Source: Mangrovimonas sp. YM274 (GTDB taxonomy: Bacteria; Bacteroidota; Bacteroidia; Flavobacteriales; Flavobacteriaceae). From it: a stretch of DNA of 64,000 nt. Where the stretch lies: positions 1,322,501-1,386,500 of the forward strand of contig NZ_CP133091.1 of the NCBI RefSeq assembly GCF_030908385.1, given 5' to 3'. Under the pieces are notes generated by a model. It saw nothing but the letters and a program-made list of their open reading frames with translations, did no database searches and was not told where the DNA came from. The translations under genes were made by a program, and so were the position numbers. Shown here in pieces: positions 48,563-53,132 of this stretch (position 1 is its first letter; every line of letters starts with the position of its first letter).

Positions 48563-49042
48563 TTAATTTGATTTTTTATAATTGAATTTCACAGTGTCCA
48601 CTTCACCCGATTTGTTGTGGATATCCACGTAGACATTCATTTCGGTGTCGCTAATTTTTTCAAAGGTCATCCCTTCAAAAACAACTTTTGTAGGGGTGAT
48701 TTCTTTTAAGGGAAAATCTACCGTTTCGTCTTTGTCTTCCCAGCCAGTTAAGTCATTTTTAAAATGTTTTAGTTGAAGAATCAGGGTATTATTGACTTCG
48801 CGTATGATTTCAATTTCATAAAAAGAGACTTTACCATCGTTGATAAGTTTGAAAGTGGCCATCATGGAGCCTCCCGAAGGTTCGCTCCAGTTTTCTTCAG
48901 TTTGTCCTCCAAAGGCTTCGCCTTTCCAATTACCTGCTATCCAAGAAATATTATCCAGTTTGGGTTCTAAAGCCATTGTTTGTGAGATGCCTAGAAAGGG
49001 AATAATTAACATTACCAGAAATAAGGATAATTTTGAAATCAT
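48563..49042 (-). CDS. Secreted DUF6265-like protein
   Basis: A 159-residue protein with a signal peptide MISKLSLFLVMLIIPFLGISQT. The mature part has ISWIAGNWKGEAFGGQTEENWSEPSGGSMMATFKLINDGKVSFYEIE, the WxxGxWxGxxxGxxxEExWxxPxGGxMxGxF pattern of DUF6265, a lipocalin-like beta-barrel family of unknown function. It converges with the GH15 gene, 3 bases apart. Confidence 0.83.
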   Translation of the reverse strand: MISKLSLFLVMLIIPFLGISQTMALEPKLDNISWIAGNWKGEAFGGQTEENWSEPSGGSMMATFKLINDGKVSFYEIEIIREVNNTLILQLKHFKNDLTGWEDKDETVDFPLKEITPTKVVFEGMTFEKISDTEMNVYVDIHNKSGEVDTVKFNYKKSN

Positions 49043-49248
49043 AGATCTTATTTTATAAAGGAAGTTAGTGAGAATAGATTGGATTTGGTTCTTTTTTTGT
49101 TTTGTAATTAATTTAATTTCAAGTGGTTAGTGTGAAATACACTTTTTTTTATAAATTTAACACTCTTCCTTAATAGCGTTTCCCACGGCTGTATTTAACC
49201 TGCGCTTATTTATGCAATTTTATTTACTAACCAAAAAATCATTTTAAA

Positions 49249-50274
49249 ATGAAAAAACTAGTTGCATGCTTTTGTGTGGTGTCTATTATGTTCACTGCAT
49301 GTCAAGAAGGAGAATTTTTGGAAGCTAAAGATGTGGAGGCCGCTACTTCATTAGAAGATCAAATTATTAGGGTAAACCTAAGTTCTAATGTGAGAAATCA
49401 AACAGCCCGTTCGGGAAACAATAATGATGATCCTGCTCGGGAATTTATGTCTGCTATTAATACAGCACTTTCTGGACAGGGAATACTATTGGAGAAGATT
49501 GAGTTTCTGGGTATGGGGGAAGAAGGAAGAACTTTAACTTTTTTTAGTGATAGGGGCAATAAGCAATTAACATCCGATTTTGTTCCTAATGATTTTAGAA
49601 ATGTTGGAGGAACAGCAGTTCCCTATTGGATTGATGATATGGAATTGGGCACCTCTTCAGGTATGACAGAACAAGAAACTTTTGATGCCATTGTGGATTG
49701 TATGGCCATTTGGGATGCTGAGACCTGTTCTCAAGGCCTTGATATTCCATTTTTAGGAACATCTGGAATGGATGTTGGATTGATACAGCTTTTTATGGGA
49801 TATGGGGGATTTGATGGCATTATTCCAGGGACTATTTTGCACGGGGGAATCTTGCCGCCCAGTTTTTTTGAAGATATCAACGGGCTAGGTGGAGGTAGTG
49901 GAACTATTGGCGCGACTTTCACTTTTATTTGGCTTAATTTTGAAGATGGACAACCTTCAGATATTGATGGTAATGGAAAGGATGATGTTGCATTTAGGGA
50001 AATTTATATCAATGATAATTTTAATTTTCAGGATGCACCAAATCATGAATTGTTTGAGGGGGTTGTAGATTTTGAAACTATAGTTCTGCATGAAGTAGGC
50101 CATGGTTTGTCTCAAGGACACTTTGGGATGGCCTTTCCTGATAATGGACATTTTAATATACACTTTGCTCCGGCAGCACTTATGAACGCTGTGTATTCGG
50201 TTCCTAGAAGAGAGGTGACTCAAACAGATCAAGCTGGACATTGCAGTATTTGGGCAGATTGGCCAAACAATTAG
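49249..50274 (+). CDS. Zincin-type metalloprotease-like lipoprotein
   Basis: A 341-residue protein with lipoprotein signal MKKLVACFCVVSIMFTACQEG (lipobox TAC). Near the C-terminus, LHEVGHGLSQGHFG (HEVGH at 281-285, third His at 291) matches the metzincin metal site HExxHxxxxxH, with Ser in place of the usual Gly at position 8. A Met-turn candidate follows in AALMNAVY (Met 312). The rest matches nothing I know; it includes DIDGNGKDD, resembling a calcium loop. It is a likely surface or periplasmic protease, with its own terminator. Confidence 0.75.
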   Translation: MKKLVACFCVVSIMFTACQEGEFLEAKDVEAATSLEDQIIRVNLSSNVRNQTARSGNNNDDPAREFMSAINTALSGQGILLEKIEFLGMGEEGRTLTFFSDRGNKQLTSDFVPNDFRNVGGTAVPYWIDDMELGTSSGMTEQETFDAIVDCMAIWDAETCSQGLDIPFLGTSGMDVGLIQLFMGYGGFDGIIPGTILHGGILPPSFFEDINGLGGGSGTIGATFTFIWLNFEDGQPSDIDGNGKDDVAFREIYINDNFNFQDAPNHELFEGVVDFETIVLHEVGHGLSQGHFGMAFPDNGHFNIHFAPAALMNAVYSVPRREVTQTDQAGHCSIWADWPNN

Positions 50275-50297
50275 AGTGCCATTCTTTATAAAAAATC

Positions 50298-50329
50298 AAA
50301 GCCCATTCAATAATTTGAATGGGCTTTTT
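50298..50329 (+). terminator. Rho-independent terminator after the zincin gene
   Basis: GCCCATTCAA, loop TAAT, TTGAATGGGC, then TTTTT. The perfect 10-bp stem lies 27 bases after the stop. Confidence 0.92.
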
Positions 50330-50374
50330 CCAATTTATATTAGAATTCTGATTTAGTCAATAAATTTAAAAAAT

Positions 50375-51235
50375 TCAACGCTCCGCAACAAGCGCTAGTT
50401 TTGTACCATCTGGACTAACCGCCATTCTAGTAATGTTGTGAAGGTTTAACTCTTTTAAACTTGCAATTTGAACCCATTCTTTTCCTTGTGTAGGATTTAG
50501 GTGATAGATGTAGTCATCCTTCGCCATTAGGATAGTACCGTCATTTAACCAGACGAGATCTTCACTATCTGTTAGTGTATTGGCAATAAATGTGAATTTT
50601 TGCGTTTTTTGGTTAAAAGAATGGATTTCCCATTGTGGTTTCTCTTTGGAAACATAGCTAATTAAATTGCTGTTTGGAATGTTGAGAAGGGAGCGCCCAA
50701 TATTTCTTTGGATGGTATCTGCTTTGTGATGTTTTAGGTTGTATTCCACCAAGGAAAGCATGTCTGGTTCCAAAACGGCCAAAAACAAGGTGTTTTTATC
50801 TTTCCATGCATGATAGCCAATCAGTAAATTATCTATAAGAACTTCCGAGGAGTCATCATTCAAACTGTAGCTGTATAATTTTTGGCTGCTATCCAATCCT
50901 AAATTGATTGAAGAAACAGCTTTTTTACCAGGGATTTTAATGGGGGAGTATTCACTGCCTTCGGTGTTACAAAGCCAAGTTGTCTCACCTGTTTTCAAAT
51001 TGTATTGGGCTATATCGGTTTGACCATTTCTAGTGGAAGAAAAGACTAGGGTGTAGTTATCTAGAAACGACGGTTGGTTGTCATAACCTTCCTTATTAGA
51101 AATATTTTGGATATTGGAAAGTTCCAATTTACCCGAGGAATGGTCAATATCGAACAGAAATACATCGGTATTGGGTTGGGCATAAATTACGGTTGTAATG
51201 CACAATAAAATGGGTAATAGAGAATAGCGCTTCAT
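50375..51235 (-). CDS. Secreted TolB/WD40-like beta-propeller protein
   Basis: A 286-residue protein with signal MKRYSLLPILLCITTVIYAQ. It has repeated propeller-blade patterns: GYDNQPSFLDNYTLVFSSTRNGQTDIAQYNLKTGETTWL, SEYSPIKIPGKKAVSSI, and MAVSPDGTKLALVAE. The family binds ligands or proteins in the periplasm; no enzyme motif is seen. It is divergent from the BlaI-type regulator, whose operator lies 73-88 bases upstream, so joint control is possible. TATCTTTA (minus strand, 51252-51259) is a likely -7 box. Confidence 0.85.
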   Translation of the reverse strand: MKRYSLLPILLCITTVIYAQPNTDVFLFDIDHSSGKLELSNIQNISNKEGYDNQPSFLDNYTLVFSSTRNGQTDIAQYNLKTGETTWLCNTEGSEYSPIKIPGKKAVSSINLGLDSSQKLYSYSLNDDSSEVLIDNLLIGYHAWKDKNTLFLAVLEPDMLSLVEYNLKHHKADTIQRNIGRSLLNIPNSNLISYVSKEKPQWEIHSFNQKTQKFTFIANTLTDSEDLVWLNDGTILMAKDDYIYHLNPTQGKEWVQIASLKELNLHNITRMAVSPDGTKLALVAER

Positions 51236-51288: not shown

Positions 51289-51318
51289 TTGCATGTGCAA
51301 ATTATATTACTACATTTG
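51289..51318 (+). promoter_or_regulatory. Promoter of the BlaI-type regulator (TTG, 19 bp, TACATTTG)
   Basis: TTG at 51289-51291 (-33) and TACATTTG at 51311-51318 (-7) fit the Bacteroidota promoter consensus exactly, with a 19-base spacer. A transcript starting about 7 bases later would leave a leader of roughly a dozen bases before the GTG at 51338. Confidence 0.72.
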
Positions 51319-51323
51319 TAGTA
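51308..51323. promoter_or_regulatory. BlaI/MecI-type operator overlapping the -7 box
   Basis: TACTACATTTGTAGTA is an inverted repeat with 7-bp arms TACTACA/TGTAGTA and a TT centre. It contains TACA-N2-TGTA, the core recognised by BlaI and MecI repressors. It covers the -7 element, so a bound repressor would block transcription. It lies 15 bases before the proposed GTG start of the regulator gene, indicating autoregulation. Confidence 0.8.
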
Positions 51324-51337
51324 TCAAAACTATAATT

Positions 51338-51718
51338 GTGGATATAAAACAACTGAACAAATCGGAATTGCAAATCATGAAATATCTATGGAGCCTCAAA
51401 AAGGGCTTCATGAAAGATATCGTAGAGCAATTTCCAGAACCTCGCCCTGCCTACACCACCATTTCAACCTTGTTGAAACGTATGTGCGATAAGGATTATA
51501 TAGGTTTCAATAGGTTGGGACGTGATAAGGAGTATTATCCCATACTTCAAAAGAACGACTATTTTTCCGGGCAAATGAAAGGCATGATCAAGCACTTTTT
51601 TAATAATTCTTCTTCGCAGTTTGCTTCGTTCTTTACAAAAAATACTGATTTGAGTATTCAGGAATTAGAAGAGTTGCAAGAGATGCTTCAAGAGAAAATC
51701 AATCAAAAAAAACAATAG
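51338..51718 (+). CDS. BlaI/MecI/CopY-family transcriptional repressor
   Basis: About 126 residues from the GTG at 51338. The frame is open back to another GTG at 51281, but that would place promoter and operator inside the gene. The winged-helix domain shows LNKSELQIMKYLWSLKKGFMKDIVEQFPEPRPAYTTISTLLKRMCDKDYIGF, matching BlaI with its A-Y-T-T-x-x-T-L recognition helix. The C-terminal dimerisation region includes FFNNSSSQFASFFTKNTDLSIQELEELQEML, where BlaR1-type proteases cut related repressors. It lies one base before the M56 protease gene. Confidence 0.92.
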   Translation: MDIKQLNKSELQIMKYLWSLKKGFMKDIVEQFPEPRPAYTTISTLLKRMCDKDYIGFNRLGRDKEYYPILQKNDYFSGQMKGMIKHFFNNSSSQFASFFTKNTDLSIQELEELQEMLQEKINQKKQ

Positions 51719-51719
51719 G

Positions 51720-53132
51720 ATGTTGCATTATGTACTCTATTCAATATTGGGTTTAGGAGCTTCATTTGGCATTTTTTCATTGTTATTGAAGTATCATAAA
51801 AGCTTTTTGTTTAACCGCTTTTTCCTTTTAGTTTCCTTATCGCTTTGTTTGTTGGCGCCTTTACTTGAAATTGAGATGTTTAATAGTGTGCCTAATTTAG
51901 CTGAGGTTACTTTGGAACCTTCAAATTATAGTTTGCAGACCAACGAAATTCTTTCTGTTCAGACAGTTGAACACATTACGCTAAAACCAAATACGGCTAT
52001 TAAAGGGCTCTTGGTTTTATATATACTCGTTACGGGATGTTTTGTTTTTAGGTTTTTAAAAAATTTAAGGCATATTCTGAAGCTTACAAAACAGCATTCT
52101 GGCCTTATAGAGGATTTAAAGTTGGTGCCCATTGATGGACAGGATGAAGCGTTCAGTTTTTTTAATTATTTGTTTGTTGATACTGAAAGTTTAGAAGATG
52201 CCATTTACAAGAGTAGTGTTGTAAAGCATGAAATGGCCCATTGGAAGCAGCTACACACTTTGGATGTACTCTACACTGAAATTATACTCTGCTTTTTTTG
52301 GTTCAACCCATTTGTATGGTTGTACAAAAAGGCAATTATTCAAAACCACGAATACTTGGCAGATAGGAGTGTAGTTGAATCGGGGATTGATACTCTTAAC
52401 TATTCCCAGGCAATTATTCATTTTAACAGCGCATTGAAAGGACATCCCTTTGCGAGCGGCTTTAATTTTAATCAAACCAAAAATAGACTTCATATGTTAC
52501 ATCAATCAAAATCATCAATCGCAAATCGAACAGTTAAAATTGCTTTAGCCCTGGTGCTATCCACAGGAGTATTTGTGTTCAGTTCATTTACAGAAAGAAA
52601 GGACCAACTAGTAGTTGTTGTAGACGCAGGTCATGGCGGACATGATCTTGGGACTTTAATGGAAAAGGACGTAGTGCTCAAAATTTCACAATTGCTGGCT
52701 TCTAAAAGCAATAGTAAAGTGAAAATTATTGAAACAAGGAATTCAGATGAATTTCTAACGCTAGGGGAGAGAGCCCAATTTATCAATGAACAACAACCAG
52801 ACTTGGTTATCAGCTTACATTGTAATGCTGCTAGTGATCCTTCTAAGAATGGGGTAGGAGTCATTTTTGACCGAAATAGTAAATATGCAGAGGCGTCTCA
52901 TAAATATGGGAAGACCTTATTGGAACATCAATTGGGAGCGTTGTTCGATAAAGGCGATATACAAACAGGGAGTATGGTAATTCTTAAAAATATCAATTGT
53001 CCAGGTGTGCTTTTTGAGTTGGGCTTTTTAAGTAATGAAGGGGATAAGGCTATGTTGTTGGATTCAGATAATCAAGAACACATTGCTGCCTCCTTATATG
53101 AAGGGTTGCTTGAAATTAGGGACGAAAAATAG
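51720..53132 (+). CDS. BlaR1-like M56 membrane metalloprotease fused to an N-acetylmuramoyl-L-alanine amidase domain
   Basis: A 470-residue protein. Residues 1-290 are an M56 peptidase: helices near 5-23, 32-50, 95-112 and 272-290, zinc motif H170-E-M-A-H174 in KHEMAHWKQLH, and a third-ligand candidate E211 in NHEYLADRSV. Residues 296-470 are an Amidase_3 domain: VVVVDAGHGGHD (H305), E315 in LMEKDVVLKIS, H367 in VISLHCNA, and catalytic E433 in LFELGFLSNEGD, so all expected zinc and catalytic residues are present. In BlaR1 this position, outside the membrane, holds a penicillin-binding sensor. It is coupled to the BlaI-type repressor gene and likely cleaves that repressor; this is inferred. 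Confidence 0.9.
   Translation: MLHYVLYSILGLGASFGIFSLLLKYHKSFLFNRFFLLVSLSLCLLAPLLEIEMFNSVPNLAEVTLEPSNYSLQTNEILSVQTVEHITLKPNTAIKGLLVLYILVTGCFVFRFLKNLRHILKLTKQHSGLIEDLKLVPIDGQDEAFSFFNYLFVDTESLEDAIYKSSVVKHEMAHWKQLHTLDVLYTEIILCFFWFNPFVWLYKKAIIQNHEYLADRSVVESGIDTLNYSQAIIHFNSALKGHPFASGFNFNQTKNRLHMLHQSKSSIANRTVKIALALVLSTGVFVFSSFTERKDQLVVVVDAGHGGHDLGTLMEKDVVLKISQLLASKSNSKVKIIETRNSDEFLTLGERAQFINEQQPDLVISLHCNAASDPSKNGVGVIFDRNSKYAEASHKYGKTLLEHQLGALFDKGDIQTGSMVILKNINCPGVLFELGFLSNEGDKAMLLDSDNQEHIAASLYEGLLEIRDEK

Follow-up and report, generated by a model that had tools for sequence, protein, structure and literature searches.

The window, i.e., the whole stretch of 64,000 nucleotides analysed here from the genome of Mangrovimonas sp. 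YM274 (a single contig of 3.82 Mb), carried a two-gene operon in which a blaI-type repressor gene was followed by a gene for an M56 protease fused to an Amidase_3 domain. The repressor product also matched MecI/BlaI structures. The two genes were separated by exactly one base (51719), the stop of the first ending at 51718 and the second starting at 51720, as the first-pass annotation had claimed; its description of a BlaI/BlaR1-type switch held, with a BlaI-type repressor next to an M56 half bearing an HExxH site. The features of the locus were as follows.

51289..51318, plus strand: predicted promoter, with -33 TTG at 51289-51291, a 19-bp spacing and the -7 box TACATTTG at 51311-51318, read from 19 aligned upstream regions
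51309..51322, no strand assigned: operator 1, ACTACATTTGTAGT, with perfect palindromic arms, overlapping the -7 box (predicted from sequence)
51329..51342, no strand assigned: second half-site, degenerate, ACTATAATTGTGGA, 20 bp beyond operator 1 and running into the GTG start of blaI
51338..51718, plus strand: blaI-type repressor gene, 126 aa, GTG start (Pfam PF03965 Penicillinase_R, 96.9 bits for a cut-off of 22.6)
51720..53132, plus strand: M56-Amidase_3 fusion gene, 470 aa, one uninterrupted frame (Pfam M56 and Amidase_3)
51720..52601, plus strand: M56 half, residues 1-294, four membrane helices and a cytoplasmic protease region (Pfam, alignment and hydropathy)
51870..51989, plus strand: loop between helices 2 and 3, residues 51-90, counterpart of BlaR1 EL1, acidic and assumed to be periplasmic
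52227..52241, plus strand: HEMAH zinc motif, residues 170-174, with E211 as third ligand (aligned to BlaR1 8exp_A)
52608..53114, plus strand: Amidase_3 domain, residues 297-465, with H305, E315, H367 and E433 (Pfam PF01520, 132.7 bits for a cut-off of 27, match at 299-463)

The M56 half matched Pfam Peptidase_M56 over residues 166-260 (45.4 bits for a cut-off of 31). The HEMAH motif was found at residues 170-174 as first read, and aligned together with E211 with the HEYAH motif and the glutamate of BlaR1 8exp_A (aligned span, residues 166-244). H170, E171, H174, E211 and D215 were invariant in 19 of 19 fusions (alignment A1). Hydropathy displayed strong membrane helices at about residues 4-24, 27-55, 91-116 and 270-292, in agreement with the four BlaR1-like helices initially proposed, and a weaker fifth segment at 183-201. 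A structure prediction built from two near-identical sequences had a mean pLDDT of 36.6. Given that the last helix stands just before the amidase, the latter is predicted to lie on the opposite side of the membrane from the protease. Helix 4 ended with FSSC, LSSC or LSC, presumably lipobox-like, at four loci of the related genus g157 (L058, L062, L065 and L007), whose amidase might be released or lipid-anchored. Among the 16 loci of this genus, which belongs to the Flavobacteriaceae, the least conserved segment was that holding the helix 2-3 loop (residues 51-96, 40.5% mean pairwise identity), while mean identity reached 68.0% in the protease region and 55.7% in the amidase. A C-terminal domain outside after the last helix, predicted here from hydropathy, would be a likeness to BlaR1, described as N-out and C-out in the excerpted text of PMC9834060.

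An amidase takes the place of the penicillin-binding domain behind the last helix, as the first-pass annotation had stated, and all the expected residues of Amidase_3 stood at the positions it gave. These residues (H305, E315, H367 and E433), which we take to be the zinc ligands and catalytic residues of the domain, were invariant in all 19 fusions (alignment A1). The closest solved structure by sequence was CwlV (1jwq, 72.9 bits), with a continuous alignment, while the alignment to the amidase of 8c0j was split between query residues 403 and 404 by some 50 residues that the fusion does not have. This extra segment is presumably the blocking helix of regulated division amidases, and such extra segments in amidases are regulatory. 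AmiA, AmiB and AmiC differ from the fusion by an extra segment in the amidase domain, and the fusion scored far below the cut-offs of the NCBIfam AmiA, AmiB and AmiC models. The fusion resembles CwlV/CwlD and AmiA/AmiC by its Amidase_3 profile and four active-site residues, but its amidase is anchored to the membrane through the M56 half. Amidase dN/dS, at 0.08 between the two fusion-bearing genomes of the window's genus, was below that of the four other segments, and it ranged from 0.08 to 0.15 within the amidase types described below, for pairs where it was computable. Purifying selection thus acts on the amidase within types. A degenerate amidase was ruled out by the invariant residues and dN/dS.

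In a survey of 299 genomes of the family, the full fusion was found in at least four: that of the window, G040 (95% identity), G157 (46%) and G117, the last with two matches inside a single 533-aa frame; the true number may be higher, since at most five candidates per genome were scored, among the matches listed. Within genera, the window's genus had the fusion in two of three genomes, g157 in 16 of 60 and a third genus in its single genome. Altogether 19 distinct intact fusion loci were collected from three genera of one family, with 35 to 95% identity to the window's protein; besides the latter, one relative stood at 95%, 16 at 41-46% and one at 35%. The identity to the Mangrovimonas xylaniphaga relative was 95% along the whole protein. 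A blaI gene was immediately upstream of the fusion in 19/19 loci, from an 8-base overlap to a 1-base gap, and kept its GTG start in every one.

The conservation of the four amidase residues and of the BlaI neighbour, which the first-pass annotation had set out for checking, was complete (19/19), and no loss of these residues occurred among the collected relatives. The frameshift or assembly join that it had considered did not occur either, the frame being open in 19 loci, which rules out an artefact of this kind. A lone oddity of one genome was ruled out by the further fusions within genera and by the Bacteroidota survey below. BlaI proteins at least 70% identical to that of the window were found in four of the 299 family genomes, the same four as the fusion, and the next BlaI was at 57% identity among the matches listed. 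In G262, the third genome of the window's genus, neither the fusion nor a BlaI of at least 70% identity was found. The BlaI-fusion pair is a coherent module.

Several other arrangements were considered. A plasmid-borne module was rejected, as none of 23 matching plasmid records spanned 80% of the protein. No amidase match was obtained at the partial-match loci L010, L015, L034, L069 and L070, the first three of which extend into the amidase part. Flavobacteriaceae also have small stand-alone amidases whose N-terminus is signal-like; a Rosetta-stone link of stand-alone amidases with BlaI or M56 was rejected, neither being present within about 4 kb at the seven small-amidase loci read (L042-L048).

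The five neighbour genes tested by Pfam encoded GH15, DUF6265, a protein without family, PD40 and an acyl-CoA dehydrogenase, and no beta-lactamase or mecA was found among them. An acyl-CoA dehydrogenase lay downstream in all four fusion genomes of the family survey, and GH15 at most about 5 kb upstream in three of them (identified by Pfam for the window and G117 copies and the G157 dehydrogenase, and from ORF sequence for the G040 copies). Further genes separated GH15 from the module in the window and G040, and one gene intervened downstream in G117. The PD40 and DUF6265 ORFs of the window (48563-51235) corresponded in G040 to a single 425-aa protein matching both, and were split in the window by an insert of about 1.3 kb with a 341-aa secreted-looking ORF containing HEVGHGLSQGH, without Pfam match. 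Neither BlaI nor the fusion matched PADLOC defence families. Two further BlaI-M56 pairs with the same gene order were present in the window's genome, and their M56 proteins lacked Amidase_3 (one showed a weak Plug match below cut-off). One of these pairs was followed by an overlapping DUF4407 gene (L050:4230-7232).

The Bacteroidota survey (395 genomes, at most four candidates scored per genome) gave at least four further near-full-length fusions, all from a second family, f4. All four carried M56 and Amidase_3 by Pfam, and the catalytic residues were present in each when read by eye. Three of them had additional domains behind the amidase (L104, L106 and L107): one both Plug and TonB_C, another Plug alone and the third TonB_C alone; the remaining fusion had neither. 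A BlaI-like gene was found by alignment ahead of three of the four, and the fourth fusion begins at a contig end. In the M56 tree, Flavobacteriaceae-type fusions formed one separate clade (support 99/97) and those of f4 another (100/99). In the amidase tree, fusions of g157 and the window's genus formed a clade (99/89) to which that of G117 was not firmly joined (52/17 for all 19), and f4 amidases were nearer to the other, 373-aa amidase of the window's genome (94/87). These groupings suggest two independent fusions, the Flavobacteriaceae-type and that of f4; a single fusion clade was not rejected by the AU test (p of 0.591 for M56 and 0.099 for the amidase).

A further group of proteins, 410-416 aa long, combined an HTH at the N-terminus with Amidase_3 at the C-terminus (L049:4206-5456, L167:527-1765 and L169:550-1782), in three genomes of two genera. 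They displayed one predicted membrane helix near residues 101-123, and HTH_3 was assigned by Pfam for L049, where neither BlaI nor M56 lay within about 4 kb. These proteins may represent another kind of regulator whose outer half is an amidase.

Exchange of the amidase half was analysed over the 16 loci of genus g157 (L054-L068 and L007), for which the amidase and M56 trees conflicted. M56 halves 95% identical came with amidases 51% identical, and the reverse was also seen; 15 of the 120 pairs showed such a contrast at the cut-offs used. Between L055 (G340) and L057 (G313), the flanks read 90-100% identical nearly throughout and bases 1-480 of the fusion gene were 100% identical, while identity fell to 43-65% in bases 960-1380 and came back to 93-100% about 80 bases past the stop. 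For this pair, synonymous divergence rose from 0 in each of the first two segments to 2.2 in the amidase; L054 and L061 showed the opposite, with 0.59 for the protease region and 0.03 for the amidase. The replaced stretch ran from about base 800 of the fusion gene to 50-80 bases beyond its stop. Three amidase types, defined after viewing the tree, required seven changes on the M56 tree of the 16 loci for a minimum of two. Exchange of the amidase half between g157 species by recombination is well supported by these identity and synonymous contrasts and by the seven type changes. The switch was thus kept while the outer enzyme was swapped, which suggests a self-regulated system sensing or adjusting the wall, and such a swap on a constant M56 half speaks against close co-evolution of the contact between amidase and protease.

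The DNA upstream of the 19 loci was dissimilar up to about 50 bases before blaI, and its final 31 bases were nearly fixed. A TTTG block and TACATTTG stood out among these regions, the latter being, in our reading, a Bacteroidota -7 box of the TAnnTTTG type. The core ACTACATTTGTAGT was exact in 18 of 19 loci at a constant distance to blaI, with one change in G117, and TTACTACATTTGTAGTAT was exact in 17. BlaI/MecI operators are of the TACA-N2-TGTA type; the BlaI-type operator announced at the repressor's promoter was borne out as sequence, ACTACATTTGTAGT lying over the predicted -7 box, and operator 1 is the probable binding site of BlaI. The tandem ACTA-N6-TAGT arrangement with 20-bp spacing was also found ahead of another blaI of the window's genome, and the same two-site spacing ahead of blaI in L105 (family f4). 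With up to two mismatches, this tandem pattern occurred at two sites in the window's genome and three in the control, so its frequency alone is uninformative.

Other operator targets were searched in the 19 fusion genomes with exact core arms and a free centre (ACTACANNTGTAGT), using a reversed control. This pattern was present at the operon's blaI promoter in 18 of 19 genomes, the exception being G117 with its altered core. Beyond the operon, it occurred at nine sites in total, versus 16 for the reversed control, and 13 genomes had the operon's own site and no other. Of the two other sites in the window's genome, one fell within the gene for an IMP dehydrogenase. The other, at G000:C1:1598280-1598293 (L136 near 1501), repeated ACTACATTTGTAGT exactly and lay outside larger ORFs, about 75 bases ahead of a 143-aa ORF without Pfam family. 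The shorter core CTACANNTGTAG gave ten sites in the window's genome versus three in the control; seven were within ORFs of at least 171 aa, and the others were the operon's own, the copy at G000:C1:1598280 and one in L141 outside the listed ORFs. G117 had a pair of operator-like sites, separated by 2.6 kb and away from its fusion operon (G117:C20:343724, in L144, and 346303). A distal regulon using the same operator core was rejected, as the other ACTACANNTGTAGT sites in the 19 genomes did not exceed the control. No target elsewhere is evident, and the operon itself appears to be the only evident BlaI target, though a looser or second operator could give others.

The module shares with BlaR1/BlaI and MecR1/MecI a BlaI-type repressor and an M56 HExxH...E protease in one operon, along with an operator-like palindrome. 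It differs from BlaR1/MecR1 by the lack of a penicillin-binding domain: at Pfam E<=1, only Peptidase_M56 and Amidase_3 were found in the fusion, and the NCBIfam blaR1_generic model gave 25.7 bits for 400 needed. We take it to work like BlaR1/BlaI but do not class it as a BlaR1 receptor, since it has no penicillin-binding domain and none of the five neighbours tested was recognised as a resistance gene. Other M56 proteins of Bacteroidota share the BlaI-M56 order, while the two in the window's genome are without Amidase_3. The excerpted part of PMC9662197 describes M23 hydrolases as rarely joined to an M56 peptidase, and a role of M56 in peptidoglycan cleavage as not demonstrated. Those fusions similarly join an M56 peptidase to a peptidoglycan hydrolase, but M23 is an endopeptidase rather than an amidase, and the excerpt describes no operon or operator (PMC9662197). 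This remark was the nearest found in the open-licence PubMed Central literature, where no M56-Amidase_3 switch appeared among the matches listed. In the main sections of PMC12578637, M56 occurred as a catalogue number and BlaI was not discussed.

The arrangement is best read as a self-regulated membrane amidase of the BlaR1 type that follows the state of the wall, with an active amidase that would be both probe and effector; judged from sequence, we give this about an even chance. BlaI would repress the operon by occupying the operator over the -7 box, and the receptor would bear an open-site N-acetylmuramoyl-L-alanine amidase on the periplasmic side. When this periplasmic half encounters abnormal or exposed peptidoglycan, or its fragments, the amidase would gate the M56 protease on the inner face, which would then cut or free BlaI, probably by cleavage, and let the operon be expressed. 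With no other target in evidence, the operon would mainly yield more receptor-amidase, and the level of this probe and effector would track the wall state. As the one operator in evidence is that of the operon, the data agree as well with the amidase being the regulated output as with its being the sensor. The amidase would be enzymatically active in this scheme, and the signal would be the wall state itself. An SFF motif, kept in 19 of 19 BlaI proteins, lies near the BlaI cleavage site Asn101-Phe102 reported in the excerpt of PMC9834060; its conservation near that position is suggestive only. A bolder reading, in which the switch is a closed-loop rheostat of the wall whose outer head can be changed, is possible but rather unlikely. 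The receptor-amidase would have itself as sole gene target, and its amidase half would be a cassette that is exchanged from one species to the next as it confronts a varying external agent (an inhibitor, a factor from a phage or competitor, or the chemistry of the wall), with the repressor, operator and protease remaining constant.

Conserved catalytic residues alone do not tell an enzyme from a sensor, and the sensor domain of BlaR1 keeps its active-site serine. The amidase could bind peptidoglycan or stem peptides while hydrolysing little, with binding alone driving the M56 protease in the manner of the acylated penicillin-binding domain of BlaR1. It does occupy the BlaR1 sensor position after the last helix, and a variable EL1-like loop is present, whose BlaR1 counterpart sits in the sensor active site, where this outer loop competes (PMC9834060, in the excerpted text). 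Yet the zinc ligands and E433 are invariant in all 19 fusions, and present by eye in the four of f4, and such a sensor would be without output since it regulates only itself; we hold it unlikely. The reverse case, in which the amidase is a wall-remodelling or recycling enzyme carried as cargo and the M56/BlaI part senses something else through the loop or the membrane part, agrees with the operon being its own only evident target, with amidase halves swapped while M56 stays and with the small stand-alone amidases of the family. However, a membrane-tethered fusion maintained in three genera suggests functional coupling, and nothing indicates another ligand, so that pure cargo is quite improbable.

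MurNAc-L-Ala amidases produce the precursor of gamma-D-Glu-mDAP, which opens a route by product feedback: freed stem peptides would be taken up and trimmed to this dipeptide, which would help to release BlaI, the M56 protease being a second lock. In B. licheniformis, binding of gamma-D-Glu-mDAP releases BlaI from its operator, but the affinity is millimolar (PMC3305447, from the part available). BlaR1, moreover, cuts BlaI directly, with no further components according to the excerpt of PMC9834060, and this route is very unlikely.

Many BlaI and M56 genes were present in the Bacteroidota genomes searched. To our knowledge, BlaR1-type receptors are understood almost solely through beta-lactam sensing. 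Here the outer half belongs to a known class of enzyme whose substrate is also known, which makes the question of what M56 receptors sense directly testable, and amidase exchange on a fixed M56 half provides natural chimaeras for testing amidase gating. If the closed-loop reading is true, the HTH-helix-Amidase_3 proteins would be a second, independent case of an amidase outer half on a transcription regulator. If the amidase gates the protease, as in the preferred reading of a self-regulated membrane amidase, wall hydrolysis would be coupled to transcription within one protein.
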